The translations under genes were made by a program, and so were the position numbers. Source: a virus. Taken from it: a stretch of DNA of 28,976 bases. Positions 7,205 to 27,568 of this stretch are shown in pieces; position 1 is the first letter of the stretch, and the number at the start of each line of letters is the position of its first letter. The notes beneath the pieces are model-generated. The model did no database searches, was not told where the DNA came from, and saw nothing but the letters and a program-made list of their open reading frames with translations. The stretch is from IMG/VR virus record IMGVR_UViG_3300013131_000185, positions 1-28,976 of that record, one strand, 5' to 3'.

Positions 7205-7235
7205 GTGCGCGTATTACGTTCGTGTATCAATACCA
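7205..7235 (+). promoter_or_regulatory. Late bipartite motif, copy A (before the GNAT gene)
   Basis: GTGCGCGTATT at 7205-7215 is followed after exactly 14 bases by ATACCA (7230-7235). It shares the upstream box and the spacing with four other intergenic copies. The upstream GG of the other copies is absent here. The ATG at 7244 follows the second box by eight bases. Confidence 0.7.
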
Positions 7236-7243
7236 TGCCGACC

Positions 7244-7702
7244 ATGTTTGATGTGCGCGAATCTACCGTTGATGAGCTGATGCAGTCCGGACAGGCGGAA
7301 ACGCTGTTTGCCGAGCATTGGGATGAGCTGGCATCACACAAGTCGATATTGCCACTGCGACCCAATGTGGATCACTACCGCACCCTAGAAAGCACGGGGA
7401 TGCTGTTGATTCTGACGGCCTGGGCAGATGAGGTGATGGTCGGCTACTCGGTAAATTTTATGACGCCGACGCCGCACTTTGGTGGATTGCTGGTGGTATC
7501 GAACGATCTGCTGTTCTTATCTAAGCCGTACCGTAAAGGCACGGGGTTAGGGCGGGCGCTATTAAAGGCGACGGAAGCGCACGGGTTACGGCGAGGTGGC
7601 AAGCTGATGATGTGGCTGGCCAAGCCTGAATCTCCACTGGCCTGGTTGATGGACAAGCTGGGGTATGTTCCCCAGGAAATGGTTTTTACGAAGGGGTTAT
7701 GA
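7244..7702 (+). CDS. GNAT-family acetyltransferase-like protein
   Basis: From ATG 7244 the product is 152 residues (MFDVRESTVDELM...). It has the GNAT layout: N-terminal helices, a central LLILTAWADEVMVGYSV strand pair, a VVSNDLLFLSKPYRKG strand, the acetyl-CoA loop RKGTGLGRALLKATE and a final KLGYVP motif. Such proteins occur near the portal gene in several podophages; the substrate is unknown. In-frame starts also exist at GTG 7205 and ATG 7235. The GTG lies within the late motif and ATG 7235 overlaps its second box. ATG 7244 has the same distance from that box as the start of the cupin-like gene, so I prefer it. No ribosome binding site is visible for any of them. Confidence 0.85.
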   Translation: MFDVRESTVDELMQSGQAETLFAEHWDELASHKSILPLRPNVDHYRTLESTGMLLILTAWADEVMVGYSVNFMTPTPHFGGLLVVSNDLLFLSKPYRKGTGLGRALLKATEAHGLRRGGKLMMWLAKPESPLAWLMDKLGYVPQEMVFTKGL

Positions 7703-7703
7703 C

Positions 7704-8018
7704 ATGGGAGCTGTGACCAATGCAATTAGTGCGGTTGTAAGTACGATAGCTGGCGGTGGCGGCAGTCCTGCCCCAGCGCCGGTAGCAAATCCTGCAGCGA
7801 ACCTGGCAAACCAATTTAGTTATATCGCTAAGGCTAGCAGCGCTGGCCAGCAGAATATGTCTGGGACTCAGAATGCCAAACAGGCTGGCAGTGGCGCGGC
7901 ACTCTCTTCCGCAATGCAAGCCGGTCTATTAAACGGCAATCAAACCCTGCTGAATGGCCCCAATGGAGTGGAGCCGAGCAAGTTGCTGCTCGACAAAAAC
8001 ACGTTGCTGGGTGGCTAG
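7704..8018 (+). CDS. Small Gly/Ala-rich virion-associated protein with C-terminal NTLLGG
   Basis: The 104-residue product starts at ATG 7704, one base after the GNAT stop and behind AAGGGG. The N-terminus (MGAVTNAISAVVSTIAGGGG) is weakly hydrophobic, the middle is rich in Ala, Gly, Ser and Gln, and the end reads LLNGPNGVEPSKLLLDKNTLLGG. The same ending recurs in the protein at 8514-8876. Similar small proteins ending in (K)TLLGG occur next to podovirus portal genes and are thought to be minor head or connector-region proteins. Exact function is unknown. A longer frame upstream lies inside the GNAT gene and is rejected. Confidence 0.72.
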   Translation: MGAVTNAISAVVSTIAGGGGSPAPAPVANPAANLANQFSYIAKASSAGQQNMSGTQNAKQAGSGAALSSAMQAGLLNGNQTLLNGPNGVEPSKLLLDKNTLLGG

Positions 8019-8050
8019 GGTGCGCGTATTGCGCTGAGCTGCACATAGTC
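8018..8050 (+). promoter_or_regulatory. Late bipartite motif, copy B (before the cupin-like gene)
   Basis: GGGTGCGCGTATT (8018-8030) begins within the preceding TAG stop. Fourteen bases later is ATAGTC (8045-8050), and ATG 8059 follows after eight bases. No ribosome binding site is seen, so a very short or absent leader is predicted if this is a promoter. Confidence 0.75.
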
Positions 8051-8058
8051 TGCGCGCT

Positions 8059-8511
8059 ATGGACGAGATTATTCCTGGTACGCAGATCAATCCTGATCTT
8101 GAGCGTGTGCAACAGCTGGAAGCCCAGATGTTGCAGATGCCTCAGCTTGAGCTGGAAACACGCCACCTGATTCATGGTGGGATGTATGCCAGGACAATCT
8201 TCTTGCCCGCTGGAACGGCCGCTGTCGGGGCGCTATTAAACCTAGACAACATCTGCATCATTGCCGGGGATATGAGTGTCACTACGGACGACGGACCAGT
8301 GCGTTTGACCGGGTATCACGTTTTATCCGCCAGTGCTGGATTCAAGCGCATTGGATACGCGCATACAGATACCTATCTGACAACGCTGTATCCGACAACG
8401 CTTACCACGGTGGCAGAGATCGAGGACGAGATGACCGATGAGGCAGATCGTTTGCAAACCAGGCGGGCTGCATTGCGGCAGCAGGATATCTCACTGATAG
8501 AGGGGGAATAA
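8059..8511 (+). CDS. Cupin-like phage structural or accessory protein
   Basis: The 150-residue protein has a helical N-terminus (LERVQQLEAQMLQMPQ) followed by a beta-rich region: ETRHLIHGGMYARTIFLPAGT, VGALLNLDNICIIAGDMSVTT, then a FKRIGYAHTDTYLTTLYPT strand. The pattern of HLIHGGMYAR, PAGT and later GYAHTDT matches cupin-fold phage proteins found near T7-like and BPP-1-like portal genes. Most have no established role. The C-terminal third is an acidic helix (EIEDEMTDEADRLQTRRAALRQQ). It starts the transcription unit that includes the portal and is followed two bases later by the next gene. Confidence 0.75.
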   Translation: MDEIIPGTQINPDLERVQQLEAQMLQMPQLELETRHLIHGGMYARTIFLPAGTAAVGALLNLDNICIIAGDMSVTTDDGPVRLTGYHVLSASAGFKRIGYAHTDTYLTTLYPTTLTTVAEIEDEMTDEADRLQTRRAALRQQDISLIEGE

Positions 8512-8513
8512 TT

Positions 8514-8876
8514 ATGGCTTTCGTAGTTTCTGCAGTCGTTGGCGCAGGTGCAATGGCGTTGGGCGCTGGCGCCTTGACCGCCGTTGGTGTTGGTCTGGCT
8601 GGCGGCGCATTGTACAACCAGCAAAAAACGGCCAAGGCGCAAGTGGCAGCTCAGAAGCAAGCCAATTCGATAGCACAGCAGTCTGCAACGAAACAGGCGG
8701 CCCAGGCGGACCAGGCCATGAATATGGCAAACCGCAAGACGCCGGATGTTGGGGCAGCCTTAGCCGGCGCACGTCAGGCCTCGCTGCTCGGTGGATCCGG
8801 AACGATGCTGACCGGACCGATGGGCGTAGGCAATGACCAACTCACCCTGAATAAAAACACACTGCTCGGAGGCTAA
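8514..8876 (+). CDS. Small Gly/Ala-rich virion-associated protein, paralogue of 7704-8018
   Basis: The 120-residue product opens with a hydrophobic glycine/alanine-rich segment (about residues 2-33, FVVSAVVGAGAMALGAGAL...), probably membrane-interacting. A Gln/Ala-rich helix (QKTAKAQVAAQKQANSIAQQ) follows, and the end is MLTGPMGVGNDQLTLNKNTLLGG. That ending aligns with the protein at 7704-8018 (GP-GV, L-L-KNTLLGG). It resembles small T7 gp6.7/7.3-class head proteins in size and context, but this is inference. The ribosome binding site GAGGGGGA precedes ATG 8514, and the portal follows three bases after the stop. Confidence 0.75.
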   Translation: MAFVVSAVVGAGAMALGAGALTAVGVGLAGGALYNQQKTAKAQVAAQKQANSIAQQSATKQAAQADQAMNMANRKTPDVGAALAGARQASLLGGSGTMLTGPMGVGNDQLTLNKNTLLGG

Positions 8877-8879
8877 TCC

Positions 8880-10577
8880 ATGAGCCTGCATACCGGGGAT
8901 TCCCAAGCGCATCCGCAGTCGCCATTGCGCGACAAGCTGTACACCCGCTGGGGCCAGCTGCGTGCGGAGCGGGCAACCTGGTGGAGTCACTGGGCGGAGA
9001 TCAGCCAGTACCTACTCCCCAGGTCTGGCCGATTCTTTGTACAAGACCGCAACAAGGGCTGGCGCCGGCATAACGCGATTTACGACAACACTGGTACCCG
9101 TGCATTGCGTGTTCTTGCGGCCGGCATGATGGCAGGAATGACGAGTCCGGCCAGGCCATGGTTCCGGTTGTCGATCAATGATCCGGAGCTGATGCGTTAT
9201 CAACCGGTGAAAATCTGGTTGAACGATGTCACTCGCCTAATGCTGGAAGTATTCCAGAAGTCTAATAACTACCGGGCGCTGCATTCGATGTATGAGGAAC
9301 TGGGCGCCTTTGGTACCTCGGCCTCAATTGTCGTGCCGGATTACGACAATGTGATCCACCATTTTCCACTGACCACCGGCGAGTACGCGATTGCCACAGA
9401 TTACCGCGGCAAGGTGTCCACGCTGTACCGAGAATTTCAAAAGACTGTGCATGAACTGGTCGGTGAATTTGGCTATGAAAATTGTTCCACGGCCGTGAAG
9501 AATATGTATGACCGCGGAAGTCTGGATCAGTGGGTGACGGTGATCCATGCGATTGAGCCGCGGGCGGATCGTGATACTGGTAAGCGCGACAACAAAAACA
9601 TGCCATGGCGGTCGGTATATTTTGAGATCGGCGCCGACAAGGACAAGTTCCTGCGCGAGTCCGGGTTCAAGGAGTTTCCTGCGGTGGTGCCGCGCTGGTC
9701 GATTTCAGGCGGTGACATCTATGGCAACAGTCCTGGCATGGAAGCCCTGGGCGACATTAAACAACTACAGCATGAGCAGCTGCGCAAAGCCCAGGGGATC
9801 GATTACAAAACCAATCCGCCGCTTCAAGTCCCTACCGCCATGAAGAATCGAGACGTCGAGCGATTGCCAGGCGGGGTGTCGTATGTGGATATGAACACAG
9901 CGCATGCCGGGATCAAGACTGCATTTGAGGTCAACCTGGATCTGTCGCATCTGCTGCTGGACATCCAGGACGTGCGGCAGCGGATTAATGGATCGTTTTA
10001 TGCCGACCTGTTCCTGATGCTGGCCAACGGTACGGACGCCAGGATGACGGCGACCGAAGTGGCCGAGCGCCATGAAGAAAAGCTACTGATGCTGGGTCCG
10101 GTGCTGGAACGTCTGCATAACGAACTGCTGGATCCGTTGATTGATATGACCTTTAGCCGGATTGTCGAGGCTGGGATCTTGCCGCCGCCACCGCCTGAAA
10201 TGCAAGGCGTGGATCTGAATGTCGAGTTTGTGTCCATGCTGGCCCAGGCGCAGCGTGCGATTGGCACCAACAGCGTGGACCGCTTTGTGGGCGGTATGGG
10301 CATGGTTGCACAGGCAAAGCCTGAGGTGCTGGACAAGTTTGATGCTGACAAGTGGGCCGACATCTATTCCGACATGCTGGGGGTTGATCCTGAACTGATC
10401 GTCGCAGGTGACAAGGTTGCCATGATCCGGCAGCAGCGTGCAGATGCCATGCAGCAGCAGGAAAAAATCGCACAGATGCAGCAGAAAGCGCAGATCGCCA
10501 AGGACATGAGCGCGACTGATACCCGTGGCCAGAATGCGCTGACCGACGCGACTCACCAATTCAGTGGTTACACCTAA
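8880..10577 (+). CDS. Head-tail connecting (portal) protein
   Basis: The 565-residue protein has the signature of the podovirus head-tail connector family (T7 gp8 type). The N-terminal LRDKLYTRWGQLRAERATWWSHWAEISQYLLPRSGRF segment is followed by the YDNTGTRALRVLAAGMMAGMTSPARPWFRL block. A wing and clip region contains RWSISGGDIYGNSPGMEALGDIK, and the C-terminal stem holds NGTDARMTATEVAERHEEKLLMLGPVLERLHNELLDPL. It forms the dodecameric ring through which DNA enters and leaves. The end is a Gln/Ala/Met-rich coiled tail. GGAGG precedes ATG 8880. Length is typical, and the C-terminus looks complete. Confidence 0.95.
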   Translation: MSLHTGDSQAHPQSPLRDKLYTRWGQLRAERATWWSHWAEISQYLLPRSGRFFVQDRNKGWRRHNAIYDNTGTRALRVLAAGMMAGMTSPARPWFRLSINDPELMRYQPVKIWLNDVTRLMLEVFQKSNNYRALHSMYEELGAFGTSASIVVPDYDNVIHHFPLTTGEYAIATDYRGKVSTLYREFQKTVHELVGEFGYENCSTAVKNMYDRGSLDQWVTVIHAIEPRADRDTGKRDNKNMPWRSVYFEIGADKDKFLRESGFKEFPAVVPRWSISGGDIYGNSPGMEALGDIKQLQHEQLRKAQGIDYKTNPPLQVPTAMKNRDVERLPGGVSYVDMNTAHAGIKTAFEVNLDLSHLLLDIQDVRQRINGSFYADLFLMLANGTDARMTATEVAERHEEKLLMLGPVLERLHNELLDPLIDMTFSRIVEAGILPPPPPEMQGVDLNVEFVSMLAQAQRAIGTNSVDRFVGGMGMVAQAKPEVLDKFDADKWADIYSDMLGVDPELIVAGDKVAMIRQQRADAMQQQEKIAQMQQKAQIAKDMSATDTRGQNALTDATHQFSGYT

Positions 10578-10589
10578 GAGGACGATCCT

Positions 10590-10904
10590 ATGCAAGACAT
10601 GAAAGTGACTAAGCCCGCAATGCCGGGCGAGCCTGCACGCGATGTGCCTGAATATCCCTATGGCCTGCGGTTGTGCCTGGACGACGAGAGCCTGGCAAAA
10701 CTTGGCATGAAGGATCTGCCGGCAATTGACGCGGATTACAAGCTGACAGCTGTGGCGTGCGTGGTGCGGATTAGCCAGGACGAAAGCCAGGGTGGAGAGC
10801 CGCGGCGTTCAGTGGATCTGCAGATTGAGCAGATGGAGCTGACGCCGACTAAAGAAGAGGCTGGTGAGTCGAGTGCAGCGAGCTTGCTGTATCCAAACCA
10901 GTAG
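10590..10904 (+). CDS. Hypothetical head-region protein
   Basis: The 104-residue protein sits between the portal and the second head cluster, with ribosome binding site GAGGA before ATG 10590. It is acidic and beta-rich in the middle (YGLRLCLDDESLAKLGM..., YKLTAVACVVRISQD, RSVDLQIEQMEL) and looks like a single small domain followed by a disordered tail. A protein at this place in related podophages is usually annotated as a capsid staple or as hypothetical. I can support a structural role only by position. Its stop overlaps late motif copy C. Confidence 0.7.
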   Translation: MQDMKVTKPAMPGEPARDVPEYPYGLRLCLDDESLAKLGMKDLPAIDADYKLTAVACVVRISQDESQGGEPRRSVDLQIEQMELTPTKEEAGESSAASLLYPNQ

Positions 10905-10936
10905 GGTGCGCGTATTGATGAAAACCAAATTTAGAG
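10904..10936 (+). promoter_or_regulatory. Late bipartite motif, copy C (before the Bbp19-like gene)
   Basis: GGGTGCGCGTATT (10904-10916) overlaps the preceding TAG. After 14 bases comes TTAGAG (10931-10936), and ATG 10944 follows seven bases later with no clear ribosome binding site. The region between is A-rich and otherwise unlike the other copies, so the conserved parts stand out. Confidence 0.75.
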
Positions 10937-10943
10937 TAGCAGC

Positions 10944-11288
10944 ATGAGCAGTTACGACCCGCTCGATATTCGCGCTCAGGAAGCTGCGGAGGCTGATCGC
11001 AAAACACGCGACAAGCTAGGTGCAGAAAACGAAGAGGCGGATTTTAAGTGGCTCATGGGCAGCAGACGAGGACGCCGGATTGTTTGGCGCCTTCTGGACC
11101 AGGCCGGTGTGTATCGCTTGAGCTTCAACACTAACGCAATGACGATGGCTTTTGCGGAGGGGAATCGAAGCTACGGCAATCGCACGATGGCATTGATCCA
11201 TTCGATCTGTCCGGAGCTGTATCCAACGATGCTACGGGAGAATGTAAATGACAGAAATGCTGATGACGGAAGCCACAACGACCACTGA
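10944..11288 (+). CDS. Bbp19-like phage protein
   Basis: The 114-residue protein has a charged N-terminal helix followed by DFKWLMGSRRGRRIVWRLLDQAGV, then SFNTNAMTMAFAEGNRSYGNRTMALIH and CPELYPTMLRE. This matches the Bbp19-like family first known from Bordetella phage BPP-1, a small helical protein of unknown role encoded just before scaffold and capsid. It may act in head assembly. It overlaps the scaffold gene by 41 bases in another frame. It opens the unit that also holds scaffold, capsid and cement genes. Confidence 0.82.
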   Translation: MSSYDPLDIRAQEAAEADRKTRDKLGAENEEADFKWLMGSRRGRRIVWRLLDQAGVYRLSFNTNAMTMAFAEGNRSYGNRTMALIHSICPELYPTMLRENVNDRNADDGSHNDH

Positions 11289-11925
11289 AGGCCAAACCGC
11301 ATCACAAACCGCCGCTGAAACCAACAGCGCTGGGTTGCAAACCAGCAATGACGGCCAGGCGGCACAGCAGCAAGCCACTAGCGATGCAAGCCAGGCAAGT
11401 TCCCAGGATGGGAATACGACTGGGGAGTCTAGTAGCGAAGCCGGCAAACCCAGTGGCGCGCCGGAGCAGTACTCAGATTTCAGTTTTCCTGAAGGCGCCC
11501 AAATGGATGCCAAGGGAATCGAGGCCTTTACTGCATTCGCCAAGGATTCAAATTTATCGCAAGAGGCTGCGCAGGCACTGATCGACAAGATGGCCCCGGC
11601 AATGGCGGAGCGTCAGGTTTCGGTGTTGAATGAGGCGCGCCAGATGTGGGCAGATCAGTCCCGTGGTGACAAGGAATTCGGCGGTTCAAAGCTGGATGCC
11701 AGTGTCAAAACGGCGAACGATGTGCTAACCCAATATGGCACACCTGAACTGCGCACGCTGCTGGTTGAGTCCGGTCTGGGCAATCACCCGGAAGTTATCC
11801 GCGTGTTATCCAGGGTCGGCAATGTGTTGAGTGCTGACAGCGTAGTCACAGGTTCAACAGGGGCGAAAGCGCCTGCCAGTACCTGGGATTCGATGTCCAC
11901 TCGTTTGTATCCATCACAGCAATAG
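11248..11925 (+). CDS. Scaffolding (capsid assembly) protein
   Basis: The 225-residue protein has the expected profile: a long low-complexity N-terminal half rich in Thr, Gln, Ser and Ala (to about residue 75), then PEQYSDFSFPEGAQMDAKGIEAF and a helical region (FAKDSNLSQEAAQALIDKMAPAMAE, then DQSRGDKEFGGSKLDASVKTA) typical of podovirus and siphovirus capsid assembly proteins. The C-terminus (STWDSMSTRLYPSQQ) probably contacts the coat. It directly precedes the major capsid gene. A GGGAG at 11236-11240 supports ATG 11248, although two further in-frame ATGs follow closely. It is expected to be lost from the mature virion. Confidence 0.87.
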   Translation: MTEMLMTEATTTTEGQTASQTAAETNSAGLQTSNDGQAAQQQATSDASQASSQDGNTTGESSSEAGKPSGAPEQYSDFSFPEGAQMDAKGIEAFTAFAKDSNLSQEAAQALIDKMAPAMAERQVSVLNEARQMWADQSRGDKEFGGSKLDASVKTANDVLTQYGTPELRTLLVESGLGNHPEVIRVLSRVGNVLSADSVVTGSTGAKAPASTWDSMSTRLYPSQQ

Positions 11926-11935
11926 GAGTTAAATT

Positions 11936-12958: not shown

Positions 12959-12966
12959 CGGTCAGA

Positions 12967-12988
12967 TACCCAGGGGCAACCCTGGGTA
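12967..12988 (+). other. Perfect 9-bp hairpin with GCAA tetraloop after the capsid gene
   Basis: TACCCAGGG (12967-12975), GCAA (12976-12979) and CCCTGGGTA (12980-12988) form a perfect stem capped by a stable GNRA loop. No T-tract follows, so it is unlikely to be an intrinsic terminator. It could stabilise the 3' end of capsid mRNA or be an RNase processing site between capsid and cement genes. Confidence 0.7.
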
Positions 12989-13018
12989 ACACCACTTAAT
13001 TGAGTAAGGAGCAAGATT

Positions 13019-13453
13019 ATGATTACTGATGCAAATCTCCAACTGTCGAACTTGCAAGCAGTCACCGTGACTGCGGTTTCGACAAACACCGTGGATCTGT
13101 CCGTTGCCCGCGACATGGGCGAAGGTAATGATCTGTATGCCGTATTTACTGTTGGCACCGCGTTTGCCGGGGGTACTTCCACGAAGTTTGAAGTGATCGG
13201 CGCGACAAATGCCGCACTGACAACTGGCGTGGTGGCCATCGGTGGATCCGACGCACAACTGACCGCAGCCTTGGTGGCTGGTAAGCAAATCGCTGTTCGC
13301 ATCGATCCGCAAATTGCTTCCAATGGTCAGCGTTACCTGGGCGCCCGCTACACTGTTGTAGGCACGAACACTGCCGGTACGGTGACCTGCGACATCGTGG
13401 AAACCATTGGTGACGGCCGTAAAGCCTACGCCTCTGGCTTCTCAGTGGTTTAA
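13019..13453 (+). CDS. Capsid cement protein (Bbp16-like)
   Basis: The 144-residue protein matches the cement protein of BPP-1-type heads in its N-terminal LSNLQAVTVTAVSTNTVDLSVARDMGEGNDLYAVF. A beta-sandwich-like region (KFEVIGATNAALTTGVVAIGG, KQIAVRIDP) follows, then GQRYLGARYTVVGTN and a VTCDIVETI strand. The family coats the capsid surface and locks coat subunits together. The gene follows the capsid gene, keeps its strong codon preference and has AAGGAG before ATG 13019, consistent with a product made in similar amounts to the coat. Confidence 0.85.
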   Translation: MITDANLQLSNLQAVTVTAVSTNTVDLSVARDMGEGNDLYAVFTVGTAFAGGTSTKFEVIGATNAALTTGVVAIGGSDAQLTAALVAGKQIAVRIDPQIASNGQRYLGARYTVVGTNTAGTVTCDIVETIGDGRKAYASGFSVV

Positions 13454-14385: not shown

Positions 14386-14386
14386 G

Positions 14387-16852: not shown

Positions 16853-16885
16853 GGGTGCGCGTATCTCCGGGATGAGCCTTTAAGG
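16853..16885 (+). promoter_or_regulatory. Late bipartite motif, copy D (before the gp14-like gene)
   Basis: GGGTGCGCGTATC (16853-16865) abuts the TAA stop of the nozzle gene. TTAAGG (16880-16885) follows at the constant 14-base spacing. ATG 16913 is 27 bases further on with ribosome binding site AGAGGA, so this copy would give a conventional short leader. It is the only copy ending TATC. Confidence 0.75.
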
Positions 16886-16912
16886 TAGCCACAACCTAAA
16901 GAGGATCAGCCC

Positions 16913-17464
16913 ATGGGATTCTTTGATATTAACCCGCAACAGATAGCAGGAATGTCAGCGATTGGCTCGACGTTCGGCGCCATTTCGTCCGGGATCGGGG
17001 CGTATTACGGCGCCCAGATGCAGCAGATCAATCTGCAGCATGCCGCATTCATGTCGGATCTGAATGCCAAGATGGCCGAGAAAGAGGCGCAATACACTCT
17101 GGATCGCGGCCAGAAAATGATCGGCCAGCTGACGCTAAAAGCCGGTCAGCTGAAATCATCGCAACGCGCCAGGATGGCAGCCAACGGGATTGATCTTGGC
17201 GAAGGCAGTGCCGGTGAGATCCTGGCATCCACCGACATTATGAAGGAGTCGGACGCCCTGACCATCAGCGCGGATGCAACCCGTGCTGCGTGGAATTCGC
17301 GCATCCAGTCCACCAATTATTCCAACGATGCCATGATGAAGCGCGTGTCTGCCAACGGCATATCGCCATTTAGCGCCATGACCAGCTCACTGTTGGGCAG
17401 CGCGGGATCCGTGGCAAATAGCTGGTACAAGTACAGCCAGATACAGCCAGATCGCGTGAGGTAA
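16913..17464 (+). CDS. Internal virion protein, T7 gp14-like
   Basis: The 183-residue product has an N-terminal glycine-rich hydrophobic segment (about residues 12-35, AGMSAIGSTFGAISSGIGAYYGA), followed by a long helix rich in Gln, Ala and Met and the phrase RARMAANGIDLGEGSAGEILASTDIMKESDALTI. This pattern is typical of the small ejection proteins that form the outer-membrane pore in T7-like phages. It is first in the unit of internal virion genes, followed by two larger proteins as in T7 (gp14, gp15, gp16). The start is supported by AGAGGA. Confidence 0.88.
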   Translation: MGFFDINPQQIAGMSAIGSTFGAISSGIGAYYGAQMQQINLQHAAFMSDLNAKMAEKEAQYTLDRGQKMIGQLTLKAGQLKSSQRARMAANGIDLGEGSAGEILASTDIMKESDALTISADATRAAWNSRIQSTNYSNDAMMKRVSANGISPFSAMTSSLLGSAGSVANSWYKYSQIQPDRVR

Positions 17465-17632: not shown

Positions 17633-19204
17633 ATGCAGCTGGAACTGGATGAGGCCAAGGTTAAGGAGCTGGACAATAAGTTTGCTGAGGCCCTGCGCAC
17701 GCAGATGCACGACCAGGCGGGCGGGTATCTGAATCGCCAGGGCGGTGAGGCAGTAAACCTGCATCAGTTCGCCCGCGACTTGGTGACCAAGACTGCAGAT
17801 GTGTTTGGCCAAGAACTGAAAACGCAACAGCAACAAGCGATGTGGCAAGCCGTGGCCAATCGGCGCGTACAGTCAGCAATGGAGCAAATCGATGTGCATG
17901 CGGCGCGCCAGGGCATGGTTTACCGGGAGGGCCAGACGGTTGCTCGCGTTAAGACCGGCGTGGATGATGCTGTGGCTAACTGGGCCAGCGGTGACGCACC
18001 CGGCAGCGCCTATTCCATGGCGCGTGCGACTGCGATGTCAGAAGTGGAAGCCTTGGCCGGGATGCGCGGCTATAGCTCAGAACAGACTGCACAGCTGCGC
18101 CAGGAAACCCTGACCAGCATGCACGGCAGTGTTTTGAATAACATGATTAGTCTGGGCGCGACCAAGCAGGCCACCGAATACCTGGATAAAAATATCAAGG
18201 AGATCGATCCGGATAAGGTGGACGATCTGCGTAACCTGGTGAAACAGTCCAGCGTCAAGGACGAGTCTTTGCGTTTGTCGATGTCCCTGAATGGCAGCCT
18301 GGCGCAGAAGCGCAAGACGCTGCAGGAAATGTTCCAAAAAGGTGAGATCAGCGCGGATGTCTTTGATGCGACGACCACCCGTGCCGAGCATGACTACCAG
18401 GTGCAAAAAGCCCAGCAAGCTGAATGGGAAAAATCCCTGGTCGGCCAGGCGCAGGACTATCTGATCAAACATCCGGAAGCCACTGTACAAGATCTGCCGC
18501 CACAGATGTATCGCGGCCTGGTGAACTCTGGGCATATTGGCACCATTGCCAGCTTTGCCCGTTCCGGCCGCTTTGATACCGATCCTAAGACCTGGGCCTC
18601 GATTGTGGGCATGCCACAGGCGGAGCTGGCGCGAATGACGCCGACGGATTTCTATAACATCTATCGCGGCAAGCTGGATGACGCCCACCTGGAAAAAGGT
18701 TATGCGCTACTCGCCGCCGCGCATGGCGATGTCAGCGATCCCAAGCACCTGGATATTCTCGGCACTGCAGATCGCGTCAAGGGCGCTGCAGTCAAGCTCG
18801 GCATCATTGATGCCACGGGTAAACAAAGCGATGACCAGGCGGTCGCCTTCCACAACTTTGAACAACAGATCGATCAGCGCGTGCGCGTGTTTGAGGCAAC
18901 CACCCTGGGCGGCAAGCGCAAAGCCAGCGGGGATGAGCTGCAGCAAATTATCGACCGCGCCACGCTGGAAACGGTATGGACGCCAGCAACCTTCTTCAGC
19001 GGCGCCAAGCAGCAGCCACTGGTCACGATGGACCCCGATGATCTGAAAAATGCCTATGTGGTAGTGGGCGGTGAACGAATTGGCGTGGCCACGATCCCGC
19101 CAGCGCAACGGGCGGCCATTACCGACAAGCTGATGTCGCGCGGATTACCCGTGACGGAACAGACGATTGCCTCTTTATGGGTTCAAGCCGGAAAGCCGAA
19201 TTGA
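17633..19204 (+). CDS. Main part of the second internal virion (ejection) protein
   Basis: The frame reopens at ATG 17633 and encodes 523 residues, largely helical and rich in Gln, Ala and Lys (DEAKVKELDNKFAEALRTQM, YLDKNIKEIDPDKVDDLRNLVKQ). The middle and C-terminal parts show the ejection-protein style DFYNIYRGKLDDAHLEKGYALLAAA and a final helical domain. It corresponds to the T7 gp15 slot: a periplasmic tunnel component used in DNA injection. The TAA three bases ahead allows termination-reinitiation, since AAGG overlaps that stop, but spacing to the ATG is poor. The true N-terminus is probably 17468. It ends two bases before the giant protein gene. Confidence 0.82.
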   Translation: MQLELDEAKVKELDNKFAEALRTQMHDQAGGYLNRQGGEAVNLHQFARDLVTKTADVFGQELKTQQQQAMWQAVANRRVQSAMEQIDVHAARQGMVYREGQTVARVKTGVDDAVANWASGDAPGSAYSMARATAMSEVEALAGMRGYSSEQTAQLRQETLTSMHGSVLNNMISLGATKQATEYLDKNIKEIDPDKVDDLRNLVKQSSVKDESLRLSMSLNGSLAQKRKTLQEMFQKGEISADVFDATTTRAEHDYQVQKAQQAEWEKSLVGQAQDYLIKHPEATVQDLPPQMYRGLVNSGHIGTIASFARSGRFDTDPKTWASIVGMPQAELARMTPTDFYNIYRGKLDDAHLEKGYALLAAAHGDVSDPKHLDILGTADRVKGAAVKLGIIDATGKQSDDQAVAFHNFEQQIDQRVRVFEATTLGGKRKASGDELQQIIDRATLETVWTPATFFSGAKQQPLVTMDPDDLKNAYVVVGGERIGVATIPPAQRAAITDKLMSRGLPVTEQTIASLWVQAGKPN

Positions 19205-19205
19205 T

Positions 19206-22200
19206 ATGCCAGACATCTATGACCAGCTGCTCGACAATAAATATGGATTGCGCTCCGATGGCACTCCCAAGGGGGCCGGTTACTTTGGAGAATTGAAGCG
19301 CCCGGACGGCGCTATTTCGACTGAGTTATCGATTGGCGTCAACCTGGATGGCCAGGAACGTGAGATCCCGTCCCTGGTGCCAACCTTGTCAGCGGATGAG
19401 GTGGATCACATGCTTCAGGGCGGCCAGCCGACCGACGGGATTGTGCAAAAAGCCGTGGAGCATGCGCGCATGCGGATGTCCCGCGGCCAGGATGTCTTTG
19501 CGACGGCGGATGATGCGCCGCGCCCAGCACCCAAAAAACCCGATATTTATGACCAGCTGATCGACGGTCAGCTGCAGCAGCAAGAGCAGCAACTGCGCGG
19601 CATGTTAGACATCGCCGGCAAGGGCAACCCGGACCAGGCGGCGGAAGCGCAAAAGCTGGCAGTGCAAACCGGGCTACCGACGGATATGGTCGAACGCAAC
19701 CTGGACGAAGTAAGGCGCCAGGCCATGGTCAAGCGCATGAACCTGCGCGACATGATGGTATCCAGCCCGGTGCTGGCACGCCAGCTGACTGATATGAACT
19801 TTGCGAAGCTGGCATTCGATGACCACGAAAATCTAAGCGGCATAGAAAAAGGTTTTAATTTCCTGAAAAACACTGGTGCTGCATTGGCCACGGCGATCCC
19901 GACCTTCAATGAGGGCGCCTGGGGATTGGTGCAAGCGGCCGGAGATCATTTGCCCAGCCAGCTGGGCGGCGATGATTTGGCGCAATGGGCTAGTGGTTAT
20001 CGGAAATCCGCCAAGGTGCGCGGTGATGACTGGATGCCACAAGCCGATGGGACATTGGAGCGCAGCTGGTATTCAGGCATGCGCTCGCTGGGTCTGAACC
20101 TACTCAACTTGCCGCTGGCCTATGGCACCGGAGGCATGGGCCGGATTTTAGGGGCGATGGGCGCAGAAACCGGCGGCCAGGCGTATGGCCAGGCGCGCGA
20201 TGCCGGACTCAATCAATATGAGTCGCTGTTGTTTGGCTCGTCACAGGGCGTCATTGAGGCCGGCACAGAAATGATCGGGATGCCGGCGCTGCTTGGGATG
20301 CTGAAGCCTGGACAATTTGTGACCAAAGCCATGGAGTACATGGTGAAGGAACAAGGCGGCGAGCAGATTGCGACTCACCTGCAGGATATGAATGAGTGGG
20401 CCATGCTGCACCCGGAAAAATCGCTAGGCGATTATCTGGCAGAACGTCCCAATGCGGCGCTGGAAACCGCGCTGTCCACGGCATTTGCCGGTGGTGGCCA
20501 GGTGGCGGTGATGAAGGGCGTGGCGATGGTGGCCAACCGCGGCCAAAGTGCAGCGGCCGCTGAGCAGCGTGCGGCGGCCTTGGAGCAGCTGAACAACCTC
20601 ATGGCCGCCAGCAAGGTGCTGAGCCGCAGCCCGGAGGCGATGGGCGGGTACGTCGAACAGCTGGCCAAGGAAACCGGCGCGGAAAATGTGTATCTGCAAT
20701 CTGGTTTACTGACTGATCCGGCCTTGGTCCAGGCGCTGAGCCAAGCATCGCCGTCGATTGCCGCGCAGTTCCAAACCGCGCAGGCGACCGGCGGTGAGAT
20801 CCGCATTCCGATGACCGAGTATCTGACGCAGTTGGCGCCCACCTATGGCCAACAGCTGATCGATGATCTGCGCCTGGAAGGGGAGCAATTCACCCGGCGC
20901 CAGGCAACAGAATACATGCAGAACCAGTCTGCGGAGCTGCAACAGGAAGTCGAGCGCGCTCTGGGCGACCAGGCAGGGCATGCCGAATTTCGCGCCAGCC
21001 AGGATGCGGTTAAGCAGCGCGTACTGGATGAGCTGAACACCCTGGGTCGCTTTACCCCGCAAAAGAATGAGCTGGATGCCACGCTGATTGCGGCGCGCTC
21101 AGCCGTCCGGGCCGCCCAGCTGGGGATGACGCCGGAGCAGTTTTTTGAAAAGCAGAGATTGCGCGTTCAAGCCGAAGGGCAGGGCGATCAGTTTGACCAA
21201 GCGGCCAAGCCATTTAATGGATCGATTGCCGAGCTGTCGCATCACGTTGCCAAAAATCCTGGCGATACGGCTTTTTATGTCAACCTGGGTAACGCCGAAG
21301 CGGCCACAGACATCCAAGCGTTGACTGGGATTGATGTTTCTAATGCGCGCATCGTAGCGCTTGGCAGCGATGTTCGGTCGGATACGCGCGATCACCCGAA
21401 TATGACGGCTGAAGATTGGAACCGCGCGGCCGGCTTATTGACGGATCACGATGCCGCAGGTCGGAGCATTGCCCAAAAAGGCGCCCAAGGCGAGCGAATC
21501 ACCCTGGTGAAAGACTTAGGTGATGGTCAGTCCTATGGCGCAGTGTATGAACTTAATGAACGCAAGAGCCACGGCAAGCGCCTACATTTGAAAACATTTT
21601 TTAAGGACAAAACGGCCGGGGTAAATAATTGGTTTGCGTCGAACACGCGAGAAAAATTAGCGCCAAGGCTCACGGCCGCGGGTGGGGACTCCCGCCTTCC
21701 CAATAACCCTGATGAGGGGTCAAACCGGACTTTCCCTGGCGCTGATGGGAATATAGAGGAATATCACCAGCAAGACAATCCCCCAGATCGTCTGGTCGCG
21801 ATGCACAACGTCAGTACCGAGAAGCTGCTGGAGGCGGTGGTCCTAGGCGGCATGCCCGTGCCGTCGATTGGGATTGCCAAGGCAGATTCACCGCTGACCG
21901 GGTTTGGCGATATTACGCTGCTGGCCCGTCGCGACATGATCGATCCGGCAACCGGCACGCCGGTATTTGACGCCGACGTATATTCTGCACGCAAGCCTGC
22001 ATTGTTGTGGCCTAAAGCCAAGACCAAGGCCGCAGAAAAGTTTGTTGCTTGGCTGAGGCCCTATGCCCAGCGCTTCAAGGATTCGTCCACCCCGTCAGAA
22101 GCCTGGGACTTCCTGCTGAATACACCGGATCGCGGACGCCTGGTTGAGCGCCTGGAGCGGTCGGCCGCAATGCGACTGGCTTACCTAGAGGCGCAGGGCG

Positions 22201-25200
22201 AAACGTTTGAGATGCCCATGCGGCAAGCGCCGTTACATTTTCAGTGGTCGAATGATCCTGAGATCCACGGTGGCGCCACTTGGGCAGCGAAGGAACAGGC
22301 AGCGGCCGCAAACCGTTTGGAAGGTGAGGCGCGCGAGGCATTTCTGGCCAGCGATGAGGCCCAGGATCTGCGGGCATTTGCGGCGGTGGTGCATGGCGCC
22401 ATGGACCGCTACCTGGCATTGCATCCTGAACTGACGGACGACGCACGCTTTACGGCACGCGAACGCATAGCAGTCACCTGGGGAAACGATGGCAGCTGGG
22501 CAAATCGCACGGACGGGTTTATTCCATGGAAGGTCGTCGATAAGATTTTCAACGATGTCAGTACTGGGGTGACGGATGAAGTGGACACCTCGGCCGCGGA
22601 AAAGCAGCTGCGGGAACAGACTGATACGCCGGCATTCCACGAATGGGTAATGTCAAAGGTCGAGCCGTTGTATGGCGAACCGTCTATCCAGGTCGGAAGG
22701 AAAAAGCTGCCGGTAACGCTGCATAACGTCGTAGCAGCAATGACGAGCGGGCGCGTCAGTGGGCAAGAGAAAACCATGACCTATGGCGCCGGCCAAGCCC
22801 GCGCGGCGATGGCCACGCGCTATCGGTCTATCGAACAGATCCAGGCGGATCGCGATCGGATTGTATCGCCCGAAGCGCATGAGGCCTTCAAAAAATCCAG
22901 CGATGACACCTTAAGCGCTTACCGTGATCTGGCGTCAACGCGCTTTACCGAAACTAACTGGCGCGGCGAAATCGACATTTGGGGCGCAATGGATGCGTCC
23001 ATGAAGGTGTTGGCTAGTATCGGCGGCAAGAAAAAGCTGACGGATGCCATGATTGTTGCGGCGTACCGCAAAAACGGGTTCAACGTGACGGCGGCGGATG
23101 CGGAGCTGGTGGCCAGTGCGCGCGATGCTGCCCAGGCGCTTAGTTCAACGCCAGTGGATTACCTGGAAGCCAAGCCGCAAAGGGTTGTGCATTTCAACGA
23201 GTTCGCCGGTGCGGTCATTCCCCAAGATGCGTCGCAAGCGGTACGCGAAGCGCTGGCACAGCATGGCGTGCCGGTGATGGAGTACAGCGGGGAGGAAGAT
23301 CGCGGTGCCGTGACTACCGCGTTTGCGCGTCAGCTGCATGGCGAACATGGAGACGTGCTATTCCAAAAGAACCAGCAAAAGAACCGGGGCGCGTTCAATC
23401 CGGAGAGCAACACGATCAGCTTGCTGAAAGATGCGGATTTGTCCACATTCCTGCACGAAGGCGCGCACTACTTTTTTGAGAATGATATTGCGCTGGCCAG
23501 TGAGCTGTCGGCTCAGCAGCAAAATGGTCAAGGGCTAACCACGGGCGAGCAGCAGATCGTGGACGATGTACAGGCCTTGTTGGCCTGGCATGGCATCCAG
23601 GGCGACATCGCGGATCAGCTGAGTCAATGGACCAGTATGAGTTTTGAAGAAAAGCGCGCTTACCATGAGCGTACCGCCGAATCTTTTGAGGCCTACCTAA
23701 TGGAAGGTAAGGCGCCCAGTATTGAGCTGCAGCGTTCTTTCCAGTTTTTCCGGGCCTGGCTGCTGAATGTGTACCGGTCACTGAAGGATTTTCTGGGTCG
23801 CCATCCGGAGGCTGGCAAGCTGAACGCTGAGGTGCGCCAAGTATTCGACAGGATGCTGGCCACGACCGAGCAGATCAAGCTGGCTGAGCAGGCACGTTCT
23901 TTGATGCCATTGTTTGGCACGCCGGAGCAAGCTGGGATGACGGTGGAAGAGTTTGCCCAGTATCAGGCAATGGGGATCGCAGCCACCCAGACGGCGATCG
24001 AGCAGCTGCAGGCCAAGGGTCTGCGGGATATGCAGTGGCTGCAGAATGCGCGCAATAAAAAGATTAAGGCATTGCAGCGCGAAGCGGAGGCCAAGCGTCG
24101 CCAGGTCAGATCCAGTGTGCGCGCTGAAGTCATGGCGCAACCGGTGTACCGCGCCTGGCAATTTTTGACCGGCAAGATCAGCAAGTCGGACAAGATCGAT
24201 CCGATGGCGCCGCGCAAGTCGGATCCTAATGTGTTGGATGAAACCCAGGATTCGTTGTTTACCGCGATTGCCAAGCTGGGCGGCATTGATAAAGCCGAAG
24301 TCATGGCGACCTGGGGGACGGACAAGGCGGATAAGCCGCATTCCGGACTCTTTGGCAAACCGGTATGGCGTGTCGAAAACGGACTCAGTATCGACGGCAT
24401 GGCCGAGGCATTAAGCCAATATGGCTACCTCACGCCGGATGAGCATGGCAAGGTCGATGTGCGCGAGCTTGAGGAAAAGTTTGCGGCCGAGCTGTCCGGT
24501 GATACCCAATACTCGAATGCGTATGAGCCGGATGCGTTTGATCAGATGCGCCCAGGCGAGCAGGTGCCTAACCTAACGGCCATTATTGCCGGCCGCCTGG
24601 ATGCGCATGCGTTGAAAGAAACCAGCCTGACCGATGACCAGATCAAGATCCTGCAGGCCCGCGGAATGGTGGCGGCTGATGGATTGCACCCGGACCTGGT
24701 GGCGGACTTGCCCAGTATCCGCATCGGATCCGGCGATCAGTTGGTTCATCTTTTGGCAAAGGCGAATGATCCAAAGTCCGAGATAGAGCGCCTGACGGAC
24801 GCGAAGATGCTAGAGATGTACGGTGATTTGGCCAGCCCGGACGCGATTCAGAAAGCTGCGGACCAGGCGGTGCATAACGATCTGCGCGGCAAGATGCTGG
24901 CAACGGAAGCCAATGTGTTGGCTCAGGCTATCGGTAAACAAAAAATCCTGGCGGATGCGGCTAGGGAATTTGCCGCCAACATGATTGCCCGCCTGCGCGT
25001 GCGCGAAGTTAAACCGGCGCAATATGTGAGTGCCGAGGTGCGGGCCGCCAAGGCGTCGGCCGAGGCCAGCGACCTGAATGTCAAAGCTGCAGAAAAACGC
25101 AACCAGGTGATTCAGCACTATGCGGCCCAGGCGGCGTATGACGCCATGGACGAAGTGGAAAAGGGCATTCGCTACCTGGGCAAGTTTAATAAGGAATCGA

Positions 25201-27536
25201 TCCGCAGCAAGGTTAATCTGGAATACCTCGAACAGATTGACGCGATTCTGGATCGTTTCGATCTGCGCAAGGGGCAAAGCCTCAAAGCGATTGACCGCCG
25301 CACCAGCCTGGCTAAATGGGTGGCCGCGCAAGAAGAAGCGGGCGTCGAGCCGGATCTGCCGGAGTGGCTGCTGCTGGAATCAAACCGGCAGCATTACAAA
25401 AACCTGACCATGGAGGAATTCCGTGGTCTGGTGGACAGCGTGCAGCAAATCGAACACCTGGGCCGTATGAAGAAGCGCTTGCTGAATGCGCGCGATCAGC
25501 GAGAGCTGGATGCAATTGTGGCTGATCTTACGGCGGAGATTGAAAAGAATTCAGGCGGTCGGATTGTGGATAACGAGATCCGCAACGAAGCGCTGTCGCG
25601 GGCCAAGGCGATCGGCAAGGGGTTTATGGCCATCCACCGCAAGATGGCCAATATGATCTATGAAATGGACGGCTATAAGTATGGTCCGATGTGGGAACAC
25701 CTGATCCGCACCATGAACGAAGCCGGTGACCGCGAGGCCAGCATGCGGGCGGAGGCCACGACCAAGCTATACGACCTGGCCAAGCCGATCCTGAAAGGTG
25801 AGCGGATGGGCGGCAAAGGCAAATATTTCCCGTCGATTGGCCGCAATCTGAACCGTGGCGAGCGCCTGGCGATTGCGCTGAACTGGGGTAACGAGGGGAA
25901 CCGCCAGCGTTTATTAGATGGCCGTAACTGGTCGGCATACAACCTGCAGCCGGTCTTGGATAGTCTGACGGCTGAGGAATGGGGCTTTGTCCAGGACGTT
26001 TGGGATTTCTTTGAATCCTATCGCCCAGAAGTGGCCGCCAAGGAACGGCGGATCTACGGCAAGGAACCCGTCTGGGTGGAACCGGCGCCGTTCACAATTC
26101 GCACGGCGGATGGCCAGGAGCTAAATGTCCGTGGCGGTTATTACCCAATTAAGTATGACATCAGGCAATCCGGCAAGGCCGGCGAGATGGCCGCGAAAGA
26201 TGAGGCGGCCAGTATGATGCGCGCCGCCAATACAGCATCCACCACCCGGCGCAGCTTTGTCAAAACCCGCTCGGCTGAGATTAAGGGACGGCCGCTGCTG
26301 CTGTCGATGGACGGCATCTGGCAGGGCGCCAATGAGGTGATCCATGACCTGGCGTTTCATGAGTGGCTGATTGATGCCAACCGGTTATTGAAGCGCCTGG
26401 ATCCAGCAATCCGGCAGCATTATGGCGCCGAGTATATGGACGAGATCCGCCATGCCATTTTGGATACCGCGCGCGGTGAGCAGGGCGCCAGCAATACTTG
26501 GGAGCGCGCCGTCAATCATGTCCGCACAGGGACAACCGTGGCCGGCCTGGGCTGGAACCTGACCACCGCATTGCTGCAGCCGCTGGGGATCAGTAACTCA
26601 ATGGTGCGCGTCGGTACTGGCTGGATCGGCAAGGGATTGTGGCAGTTTTATAGCAACCCGGTGGCGAAGGCTCAGGAGATCCAGGATAAGTCTGAGTTCA
26701 TGCGTAACCGCGCCCGCACGATGCAGCGCGAGATTAACGAGATCCAAAACCAGATTATGACGGCTAAAAGCCGTAAACAGCAGCTGCTGGAATCCTCGTA
26801 CTTCATGCTGATTCAAAAGCTCCAGGCGACCGTTGATTATCCAACCTGGCTGGGTGCCTATGAAAAGGCGATGGCGGCGAATACTGACGAGGCGGCGGCG
26901 ATTGCCATGGCCGATCAGGCGGTAATCGATTCTCAGGGGGGTGGCCAAACGAAAGACCTGGCTCGGATCCAGCGCGGCGGCCCATTGCAAAAATTGTGGA
27001 CCAACTTTTATTCATTTTTTAGCGTGACCTTGAACCTGGCGGTCGATCAAACCAAAGCCACGGATTTCAAAAACCCAGCCAAGGTGGCGGCGCTGGCCGG
27101 CGATTATGTCCTGCTGTTTGTATGGCCTACGGTTGCGGCCATGCTGCTGAAATCCTTATTGCGCGGCGACGATGACGATGGCGAAGAGCTGGCCAAGAAA
27201 ATGCTGGAAGAGCAGATCAGCTTCCTGATGGGCCAGTTTGTGGGGTTGCGCGAGCTTACTTCTGCCGGCCAGGCATTGTTTGGGGTTGGCTACCAGGGGC
27301 AGGGCTATAGCGGCCCGGCTGGGGCAAGGTTGTTCGCGGAAATGCAGCGTTTGGCACAACAAATCAACCAGGGCGAAGTTGATGCCGCCTTCCTGAAAGC
27401 CACGAACAATGTTGCGGGGATTCTGTTTCATTACCCGGCAGGCCAAGTGGCCCGCACGGTGGATGGAGTTCGGGCGATCATCGATGGTGAAACAAACAAT
27501 CCGCTGGCGCCGGTAGTTGGGCCACCCAAGAAATAG
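19206..27536 (+). CDS. Giant polyvalent internal virion protein (2776 aa)
   Basis: ATG 19206 begins MPDIYDQLLDNKYGLRSDGT; an upstream in-frame TTG at 19167 lies in the previous gene. Visible parts: a conserved phage domain (12-100); helical regions; a nuclease-like domain of the Barnase/EndoU/ColicinE5-D/RelE (PBECR) type at about 690-820 (LGNAEAATDIQAL... VYELNERKSHGKRLHLKTFF); a large-polyvalent-protein domain at about 862-930 (LVAMHNVSTEKLL... GFGDITLLARRDMI); and a zincin metallopeptidase motif His1417-Glu1418-x2-His1421 in STFLHEGAHYFFE. A long coiled C-terminal half ends with a hydrophobic segment at about 2627-2652. It fills the T7 gp16 slot, so it is probably injected into the cell with the DNA. 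T7's lytic transglycosylase is not evident. Confidence 0.87.
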   Translation: MPDIYDQLLDNKYGLRSDGTPKGAGYFGELKRPDGAISTELSIGVNLDGQEREIPSLVPTLSADEVDHMLQGGQPTDGIVQKAVEHARMRMSRGQDVFATADDAPRPAPKKPDIYDQLIDGQLQQQEQQLRGMLDIAGKGNPDQAAEAQKLAVQTGLPTDMVERNLDEVRRQAMVKRMNLRDMMVSSPVLARQLTDMNFAKLAFDDHENLSGIEKGFNFLKNTGAALATAIPTFNEGAWGLVQAAGDHLPSQLGGDDLAQWASGYRKSAKVRGDDWMPQADGTLERSWYSGMRSLGLNLLNLPLAYGTGGMGRILGAMGAETGGQAYGQARDAGLNQYESLLFGSSQGVIEAGTEMIGMPALLGMLKPGQFVTKAMEYMVKEQGGEQIATHLQDMNEWAMLHPEKSLGDYLAERPNAALETALSTAFAGGGQVAVMKGVAMVANRGQSAAAAEQRAAALEQLNNLMAASKVLSRSPEAMGGYVEQLAKETGAENVYLQSGLLTDPALVQALSQASPSIAAQFQTAQATGGEIRIPMTEYLTQLAPTYGQQLIDDLRLEGEQFTRRQATEYMQNQSAELQQEVERALGDQAGHAEFRASQDAVKQRVLDELNTLGRFTPQKNELDATLIAARSAVRAAQLGMTPEQFFEKQRLRVQAEGQGDQFDQAAKPFNGSIAELSHHVAKNPGDTAFYVNLGNAEAATDIQALTGIDVSNARIVALGSDVRSDTRDHPNMTAEDWNRAAGLLTDHDAAGRSIAQKGAQGERITLVKDLGDGQSYGAVYELNERKSHGKRLHLKTFFKDKTAGVNNWFASNTREKLAPRLTAAGGDSRLPNNPDEGSNRTFPGADGNIEEYHQQDNPPDRLVAMHNVSTEKLLEAVVLGGMPVPSIGIAKADSPLTGFGDITLLARRDMIDPATGTPVFDADVYSARKPALLWPKAKTKAAEKFVAWLRPYAQRFKDSSTPSEAWDFLLNTPDRGRLVERLERSAAMRLAYLEAQGETFEMPMRQAPLHFQWSNDPEIHGGATWAAKEQAAAANRLEGEAREAFLASDEAQDLRAFAAVVHGAMDRYLALHPELTDDARFTARERIAVTWGNDGSWANRTDGFIPWKVVDKIFNDVSTGVTDEVDTSAAEKQLREQTDTPAFHEWVMSKVEPLYGEPSIQVGRKKLPVTLHNVVAAMTSGRVSGQEKTMTYGAGQARAAMATRYRSIEQIQADRDRIVSPEAHEAFKKSSDDTLSAYRDLASTRFTETNWRGEIDIWGAMDASMKVLASIGGKKKLTDAMIVAAYRKNGFNVTAADAELVASARDAAQALSSTPVDYLEAKPQRVVHFNEFAGAVIPQDASQAVREALAQHGVPVMEYSGEEDRGAVTTAFARQLHGEHGDVLFQKNQQKNRGAFNPESNTISLLKDADLSTFLHEGAHYFFENDIALASELSAQQQNGQGLTTGEQQIVDDVQALLAWHGIQGDIADQLSQWTSMSFEEKRAYHERTAESFEAYLMEGKAPSIELQRSFQFFRAWLLNVYRSLKDFLGRHPEAGKLNAEVRQVFDRMLATTEQIKLAEQARSLMPLFGTPEQAGMTVEEFAQYQAMGIAATQTAIEQLQAKGLRDMQWLQNARNKKIKALQREAEAKRRQVRSSVRAEVMAQPVYRAWQFLTGKISKSDKIDPMAPRKSDPNVLDETQDSLFTAIAKLGGIDKAEVMATWGTDKADKPHSGLFGKPVWRVENGLSIDGMAEALSQYGYLTPDEHGKVDVRELEEKFAAELSGDTQYSNAYEPDAFDQMRPGEQVPNLTAIIAGRLDAHALKETSLTDDQIKILQARGMVAADGLHPDLVADLPSIRIGSGDQLVHLLAKANDPKSEIERLTDAKMLEMYGDLASPDAIQKAADQAVHNDLRGKMLATEANVLAQAIGKQKILADAAREFAANMIARLRVREVKPAQYVSAEVRAAKASAEASDLNVKAAEKRNQVIQHYAAQAAYDAMDEVEKGIRYLGKFNKESIRSKVNLEYLEQIDAILDRFDLRKGQSLKAIDRRTSLAKWVAAQEEAGVEPDLPEWLLLESNRQHYKNLTMEEFRGLVDSVQQIEHLGRMKKRLLNARDQRELDAIVADLTAEIEKNSGGRIVDNEIRNEALSRAKAIGKGFMAIHRKMANMIYEMDGYKYGPMWEHLIRTMNEAGDREASMRAEATTKLYDLAKPILKGERMGGKGKYFPSIGRNLNRGERLAIALNWGNEGNRQRLLDGRNWSAYNLQPVLDSLTAEEWGFVQDVWDFFESYRPEVAAKERRIYGKEPVWVEPAPFTIRTADGQELNVRGGYYPIKYDIRQSGKAGEMAAKDEAASMMRAANTASTTRRSFVKTRSAEIKGRPLLLSMDGIWQGANEVIHDLAFHEWLIDANRLLKRLDPAIRQHYGAEYMDEIRHAILDTARGEQGASNTWERAVNHVRTGTTVAGLGWNLTTALLQPLGISNSMVRVGTGWIGKGLWQFYSNPVAKAQEIQDKSEFMRNRARTMQREINEIQNQIMTAKSRKQQLLESSYFMLIQKLQATVDYPTWLGAYEKAMAANTDEAAAIAMADQAVIDSQGGGQTKDLARIQRGGPLQKLWTNFYSFFSVTLNLAVDQTKATDFKNPAKVAALAGDYVLLFVWPTVAAMLLKSLLRGDDDDGEELAKKMLEEQISFLMGQFVGLRELTSAGQALFGVGYQGQGYSGPAGARLFAEMQRLAQQINQGEVDAAFLKATNNVAGILFHYPAGQVARTVDGVRAIIDGETNNPLAPVVGPPKK

Positions 27537-27568
27537 GGTGCGCGTATTGGGCTGCCTGGCAGATAGCC
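27536..27568 (+). promoter_or_regulatory. Late bipartite motif, copy E (before the tail fibre gene)
   Basis: GGGTGCGCGTATT (27536-27548) overlaps the final base of the TAG stop. ATAGCC (27563-27568) follows 14 bases later. ATG 27597 lies 28 bases further, after CAGGAG, giving a conventional leader like copy D. Confidence 0.75.

Follow-up and report, generated by a model that had tools for sequence, protein, structure and literature searches.

The window analysed here is a viral contig of 28,976 bases (IMG/VR virus record IMGVR_UViG_3300013131_000185, positions 1 to 28,976) in which end repeats are absent. Genes for terminase, portal, protease, major head protein, tail, internal virion proteins and a tail fibre place it among the BPP-1-like podophages, and its portal protein is approximately 70-73% identical to the portals of BPP-1, DC33, zth2-2, ctEw122 and ctQRb9. 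The subject of this study is a set of five short bipartite elements in gaps of the late region, examined as candidate late promoters, together with a small helix-turn-helix (HTH) protein encoded just upstream of the terminase genes and conserved in relatives, where it is known as Bbp27 in BPP-1. The window is a fragment of a genome, and further promoters may lie beyond its ends.

Each element consists of the nine-base box GTGCGCGTA, a spacer of exactly 17 base pairs (bp), and a sigma-70-type -10 hexamer of the form TANNNT. The elements and the HTH gene are located as follows.

5127-5357, plus strand: HTH protein gene, 76 amino acids, Bbp27 homologue (tblastn and hidden Markov model (HMM) family adjoining terminase; covariation; AlphaFold2 model).
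7205-7236, plus strand: candidate late promoter 1; box 7205-7213, -10 TACCAT at 7231-7236, predicted +1 at 7243/7244, ATG at 7244.
8020-8051, plus strand: candidate late promoter 2; box 8020-8028, -10 TAGTCT at 8046-8051, predicted +1 at 8058/8059, ATG at 8059.
10906-10937, plus strand: candidate late promoter 3; box 10906-10914, -10 TAGAGT at 10932-10937, predicted +1 at 10944, which is the A of the ATG.
16855-16886, plus strand: candidate late promoter 4; box 16855-16863, -10 TAAGGT at 16881-16886, predicted +1 at ~16893, ATG at 16913.
27538-27569, plus strand: candidate late promoter 5; box 27538-27546, -10 TAGCCT at 27564-27569, predicted +1 at ~27576, ATG at 27597.

A first-pass annotation of the same DNA had described these copies as an 11-base box, an invariant distance of 14 bases and a second box, WTA(G/A/C), and had interpreted them as late promoters. 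All five copies are exact and lie on the plus strand, with none on the minus strand. Within the longer box the nine-mer is conserved, while relatives keep the trailing T and Y only weakly; the second box is real but represents the front of the -10 hexamer, which is intact in all five cases. The constant distance holds, and is correctly read as 17 bp between box and hexamer. The bases T-12, A-11 and T-7 are present in every element as in sigma-70 promoters, so that the box (-38 to -30) falls precisely on the place of the -35 element, where GTGCGCGTA stands instead of a TTGACA-like sequence. Four of the five elements begin at the stop codon of the preceding gene, as had been noted, but the one at 7205 is preceded by a lipoprotein-like open reading frame (ORF) on the opposite strand (6936-7175) and not by the stop of a late gene. 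A feature that had been missed is the position of the start codons: at 7205, 8020 and 10906 the ATG lies at +1 or +2, and since the predicted start of transcription thus falls on the ATG or one base before it at three of the five promoters, those late mRNAs are predicted to be leaderless. Promoters 4 and 5 have a predicted leader of ~20 nucleotides (nt) with a Shine-Dalgarno-like sequence.

The full pattern of the first-pass annotation has no occurrence in 1000 dinucleotide shuffles of the window, and a blind search for any nine-mer repeated 17 bp before TANNNT gives a multiplicity of 5 on the plus strand and 1 on the minus strand, as against at most 2 in 1000 shuffles. There is no sixth site of comparable score on either strand of the window. 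As every copy sits in a gap and four begin at a preceding stop codon, the elements could in principle be RNA elements, packaging sites or recombination hot spots; this is most improbable given the TANNNT hexamer at exactly 17 bp, spacers that are unrelated in sequence, and, in many relatives, the C/A at -1/+1 and the ATG at +1/+2.

Relatives were collected through their portal proteins, the whole HTH alignment, with its few conserved stretches, being unsuitable as a query. This architecture is found again in a set of 361 related loci, where the box differs from phage to phage within the form GTNNNC(G/A)T(A/G); the words found in late gaps include GTACCCGTA in DC33 and ctQRb9, GTGCCCGTA in ctEw122 and GTGCCCGTG in BPP-1. 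In the window and the first set of relatives, GTNNNCGTN-N17-TANNNT has 125 sense and 7 antisense sites, and spacings of 13-16 and 18-21 give only 0-4 sense sites. An assumption-free search of the 361 loci for nine-mers that occur at least three times per locus 17 bp before TANNNT yields 55 in sense orientation, almost all of them GTNNNC(G/A)T(A/G)-like, and 0 in antisense. Conservation of the spacing in relatives had been named in advance as the observation on which the first-pass reading would turn, and the 17-bp spacing is kept; together with the TANNNT hexamer, the strand bias and the position of the sites in hundreds of relatives, this strongly supports the interpretation as late promoters.

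Across 366 unique sites the distance from the -10 hexamer to the ATG is most commonly 6 nt (119 sites), followed by 7 nt (43). Positions -1 and +1 are enriched in C and A, respectively, and the aggregate contains no residual TTGACA-like hexamer beneath the box. The start of the phrog_528 gene is illustrative: a promoter with the ATG 5-8 nt past the -10 is found in 124 of 195 distinct upstream sequences, and a Shine-Dalgarno-like match accompanies only 7 of these 124, versus 22 of the 71 others. The window conforms to this class in its several copies at late gene starts, with a GTNNNC(G/A)T(A/G) box 17 bp before TANNNT, and in its Bbp27-type HTH gene adjoining terminase, whose recognition helix matches the box (D57 and R56 with G at -34 and G at -36, respectively).

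The occurrence of the boxes follows that of the HTH gene. Loci of at least 16 kb that carry the gene (n = 117) contain 217 sense and 12 antisense sites, whereas those of the same length that lack it (n = 31, epsilon15 included) contain 3 sense and 2 antisense sites, approximately the level of chance. Epsilon15 was considered as a near model and rejected, as it lacks the HTH protein and has one chance match per strand. In an AlphaFold2 model (core pLDDT about 90) the recognition helix spans approximately residues 52-60, and the model aligns with generic three-helix HTH proteins. Searches of the PDB by sequence and by fold gave generic HTH matches only, and families outside those lists may exist; the match to Pfam HTH_7 (resolvase HTH) scores 24.8 bits against a cutoff of 23.8. 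The RefSeq product name of bbp27 (NC_005357; locus L011 26337-26573, minus strand) is 'endonuclease', which probably misnames a small DNA-binding protein of the HTH type, and the homologue in ctQRb9 is annotated as '54S ribosomal protein'.

The link between protein and box was examined by mutual information between box positions and HTH columns in 101 representatives; the portal proteins of these phages supplied 491 columns as a background for shared descent. Box positions 3, 5 and 7 correspond to -36, -34 and -32; sites in this training set were chosen by a weight matrix itself derived from box-pattern matches. The strongest pair is HTH column 53 (D57) with -34, at 0.888 bits (portal mean 0.044, standard deviation 0.067, maximum 0.355), followed by column 52 (R56) with -36 (0.434 bits; portal maximum 0.275) and column 15 (N20) with -32 (0.333 bits; portal maximum 0.287). 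At residue 57, D occurs with G at -34 in 36 of 36 cases, K with C in 24 of 30 and G with G in 9 of 10, while at residue 56, R occurs with G at -36 in 31 of 31, Q with A in 8 of 8 and H with T in 3 of 5. In usual major-groove chemistry Arg pairs with G, Gln with A, Lys with G on the other strand and Asp with C on the other strand, and the covarying pairs fit these preferences.

On the portal tree, position -34 has changed 24 times, and among well-supported branches there are 13 independent pairs of phages that differ at -34, of which 11 are concordant and 0 opposed (p about 0.001); the tree tests used a fast method. The corresponding tests at -36 and -32 run in the expected direction, with too few pairs for significance, and the HTH protein's own tree has few well-supported branches and therefore little power. 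Among phages whose portals are more than 75% identical, residue 57 is shared in 125 of 160 pairs with the same base at -34 and in only 3 of 89 pairs with different bases. One natural swap, between loci L230 and L231, has portals that are 98.7% identical and late regions that are about 93% identical, yet the HTH proteins and boxes differ: the recognition helix is RDIC in the first and AKIC in the second, and the box is GTGCGCGTA in the first and GTGCCCGTA or GTGCCCGTT in the second.

The pairing was also used for prediction in a held-out set of new loci, whose HTH proteins are less than 85% identical to any earlier one and in which, for this set only, box positions 3-5 were given neutral weights in the choice of sites. 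The new loci contain 238 sense and 12 antisense sites. The base at -34 was predicted correctly in 13 of 18 cases, including D to G in 4 of 4 and K to C in 7 of 7; at -36 the prediction held in 16 of 18, which says little because 15 of the 18 loci have G at that position anyway. The covariation is, on sequence grounds, strong enough to name the HTH protein as the probable reader of the box.

With the repeats, their spacing, the -10 hexamers, the homology and the covariation evident at the level of sequence, the five elements are interpreted as late promoters (probability about 0.88) at which the sigma-70 holoenzyme would read the -10 and a phage HTH protein would read a phage-specific -35 box. 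Sigma region 2 of the host RNA polymerase, carrying the housekeeping sigma factor, would recognize TANNNT, and the 9-bp box, in place of a -35 hexamer, would be bound by the protein encoded at 5127-5357, sitting where sigma region 4 normally binds. The promoters would thus become active only once the HTH protein has been made, and the late region would open as five modules: the GNAT gene, a short tail fibre with the portal, the head, the ejection proteins, and the tail fibre. Almost certainly, the Bbp27-type HTH protein is what switches on the structural genes of the phage; we infer that it does so by activation and not repression, together with its contact with, or substitution for, sigma region 4 and the timing of its action.

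The first-pass annotation had left the choice between a phage activator and an altered RNA polymerase, and the activator is now favoured by the sigma-70 -10 and by the residue-level covariation of a phage HTH protein with the box. Recognition of both boxes by an altered polymerase or a sigma factor of the phage would suit a bipartite motif of fixed spacing, and phiEco32-like phages operate in this manner with a phage sigma factor; here it is very unlikely, as the -10 retains the T, A and T of sigma-70, the covarying HTH protein scores below threshold for every sigma family (Sigma70_r4 E 0.02), and the annotations of BPP-1, ctEw122 and ctQRb9 list neither a sigma factor nor an RNA polymerase gene (annotation only, no HMM search). 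A contiguous T7-type promoter of ~20 bp is absent, the motif being bipartite with an unrelated spacer; no RNA polymerase gene is annotated in relatives, and the window is only a fragment. A role for the HTH protein in blocking these promoters, as a late repressor or a timing switch, is also unlikely: although the box overlaps the -35 region, a frequent target of repressors, the aggregate of 366 sites lacks a usual -35 under it, the box replaces the -35 at exact spacing and changes with the HTH protein, and promoters of this kind should be weak without a helper.

Two versions of the last mechanistic step were weighed for the activator. In the first, held tentatively, the 76-residue protein is a free-standing substitute for sigma region 4 with a new -35 specificity and a simple residue-base code that has been rewritten repeatedly, serving leaderless late mRNAs. 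If true, residue 56 would read -36 and residue 57 would read -34, and the promoters of a genome would have changed together with the code. In the bacteriophage T4 middle complex, the HTH of AsiA occupies -32 to -37 (PMC6755090), and the DNA that the phage HTH protein would cover corresponds to the place of AsiA's HTH and to that of sigma region 4 on ordinary promoters, which makes a replacement of region 4 plausible. The main rival keeps the same promoters and differs in this step only: the HTH protein would be a class II-type activator over or beside the -35, contacting a sigma region 4 that stays near the DNA. Many activators bind near the -35 and touch sigma region 4. Mu C overlaps the -35 at Pmom (PMC4461284), a further point for this alternative, which is likewise possible but falls somewhat short of even odds; the covarying positions -36, -34 and -32 share the major groove occupied by the AsiA HTH (PMC6755090), and the aggregated sites hold no TTGACA-like remnant, both of which speak for substitution.

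Several observations weigh against the proposed promoters and their reader. Covariation indicates recognition, not activation, and at -35 and -30 it does not rise above the portal background, being confined to the pairs at -36, -34 and -32. The mean pLDDT of the HTH model is a middling 74, and its fold matches generic HTH proteins only, at Z about 5 (Hin, Tn3 resolvase, Tc3, GcrA). Of the held-out predictions at -34, 5 of 18 failed (four Gln, one His); Gln was not listed in the rule, though it occurs with C once in the training table, and the default of G for unlisted residues was wrong for it. Under the strict pattern, 33 of the 117 long HTH-bearing loci have no site; an unquantified inspection by eye finds diverged boxes in many of them, though not in all.

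Activators encoded by phages that substitute for a -35 element have precedents in T4 MotA and Mu C. The T4 MotA/AsiA system (PMC6755090) similarly replaces the -35 with a box for a phage protein while keeping the sigma-70 -10 and the host RNA polymerase, and the window has this arrangement, with the reading of its box inferred from covariation. The MotA box, however, is centred at -30/-31 whereas the 9-bp box spans -38 to -30; T4 uses two proteins, MotA having a double-wing fold, and here there is one HTH protein of 76 residues (an AsiA-like partner was not sought); and MotA/AsiA serves middle genes rather than late ones. Mu C (late) and Mor (middle) likewise represent phage DNA-binding activators, required at several late promoters with a poor -35 (PMC4461284), but C, a dimer, has its site upstream of the -35 or overlapping with it, while the present box is non-palindromic, in register with the -35 and apparently bound by one HTH unit. 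Late promoters of phiEco32 and 7-11 are also bipartite with a phage-specific sequence, yet they depend on a phage sigma factor (PMC8948821), in contrast to the retained sigma-70 -10 and phage-specific -35 word described here. In the Caulobacter gene transfer agent the phage-derived activator GafY/GafZ aids RpoD at promoters with a degenerate -35, although GafY binds far upstream, needs IHF and has no -35 activator box (PMC11150451). A search of open-access papers (subscription papers were not covered) yielded no account of the promoter class, of the Bbp27 family as its reader, of the code linking bases to residues or of the leaderless arrangement, and late gene control in BPP-1-like phages appears to be undescribed in searchable papers.

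Promoter and reader, the two halves of the switch, are supplied for hundreds of phages at once, with start sites predicted to the base and a specificity code that can be addressed by swaps of one or two residues. One protein and several distant boxes that change jointly would also constitute a clear natural case of the co-change in specificity of a regulator and its regulon.

BPP-1 is the model phage for diversity-generating retroelements. Its late region contains all three of its GTGCCCGTG-N17-TANNNT sites, located at the start of bbp19 (predicted +1 on the A of the ATG), in the gap between bbp24 and bbp25, and upstream of bbp9. Bbp27 occupies the same genomic position as the HTH protein of the window, from which it differs in its recognition helix (AKIC versus RDIC), as does its box, with C at -34 and G at -30. 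One predicted promoter (~6184 of NC_005357, minus strand) lies just upstream of bbp9-mtd-avd-TR-brt; if the proposal is true, the HTH protein would drive transcription of the diversity-generating retroelement operon as well, and this promoter may time tropism switching. The same promoter (L011 reverse complement 36310) overlaps a strong terminator hairpin (-31 kcal/mol). As the predicted start is at the hairpin loop, transcripts from this promoter would begin without the 5′ arm and would escape termination. Rho-independent terminators overlapping promoters were rejected as a general feature, occurring at 1 of 366 sites (the BPP-1 tail-fibre promoter only) and in 6 of 3360 controls.

In the Caulobacter phages RapA and SR18, whose HTH protein carries 'VRDI', the strict pattern gives no late site. 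In a looser, after-the-fact inspection, GTGCGCAT(A/G) was found at three late positions of RapA (L367 43170, 38719 and 22645, minus strand). These boxes have G at -36 and -34, as expected, and -10 regions that deviate from TANNNT, which perhaps reflects the different -10 of alphaproteobacteria; as support for the residue-base code they are only suggestive.

The genes that follow the five candidate promoters are listed below.

7244-7702, plus strand: GNAT-like gene, predicted leaderless, start at ATG 7244 and not GTG 7205 (sequence; phrog_1249 acetyltransferase).
8059-8511, plus strand: short tail fibre-like gene (phrog_12032) with a near-leaderless start, the ATG 7 nt from the -10.
10944-11288, plus strand: phrog_528 gene, predicted leaderless, first gene of a module that also encodes the protease, the major head protein and tail proteins.
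16913-17464, plus strand: internal virion protein gene (phrog_418), heading the ejection-protein module.
27597-28976, plus strand: tail fibre gene (phrog_1640), which runs off the contig.

At the ejection-protein position a single ORF of 2789 amino acids (19167-27536) takes up 29% of the contig and matches families of unknown function only (phrog_9880). The lipoprotein-like ORF (6936-7175, minus strand) between terminase and the 7205 promoter encodes 79 amino acids (MKKPILISIVLAGCATTPG...) behind a good Shine-Dalgarno sequence, and looks like an accessory gene inserted into the late region. Among the relatives, Limnohabitans phage DC33 (L008, PQ492659) is filed under Inoviridae but carries the structural genes of a tailed, BPP-1-like phage.

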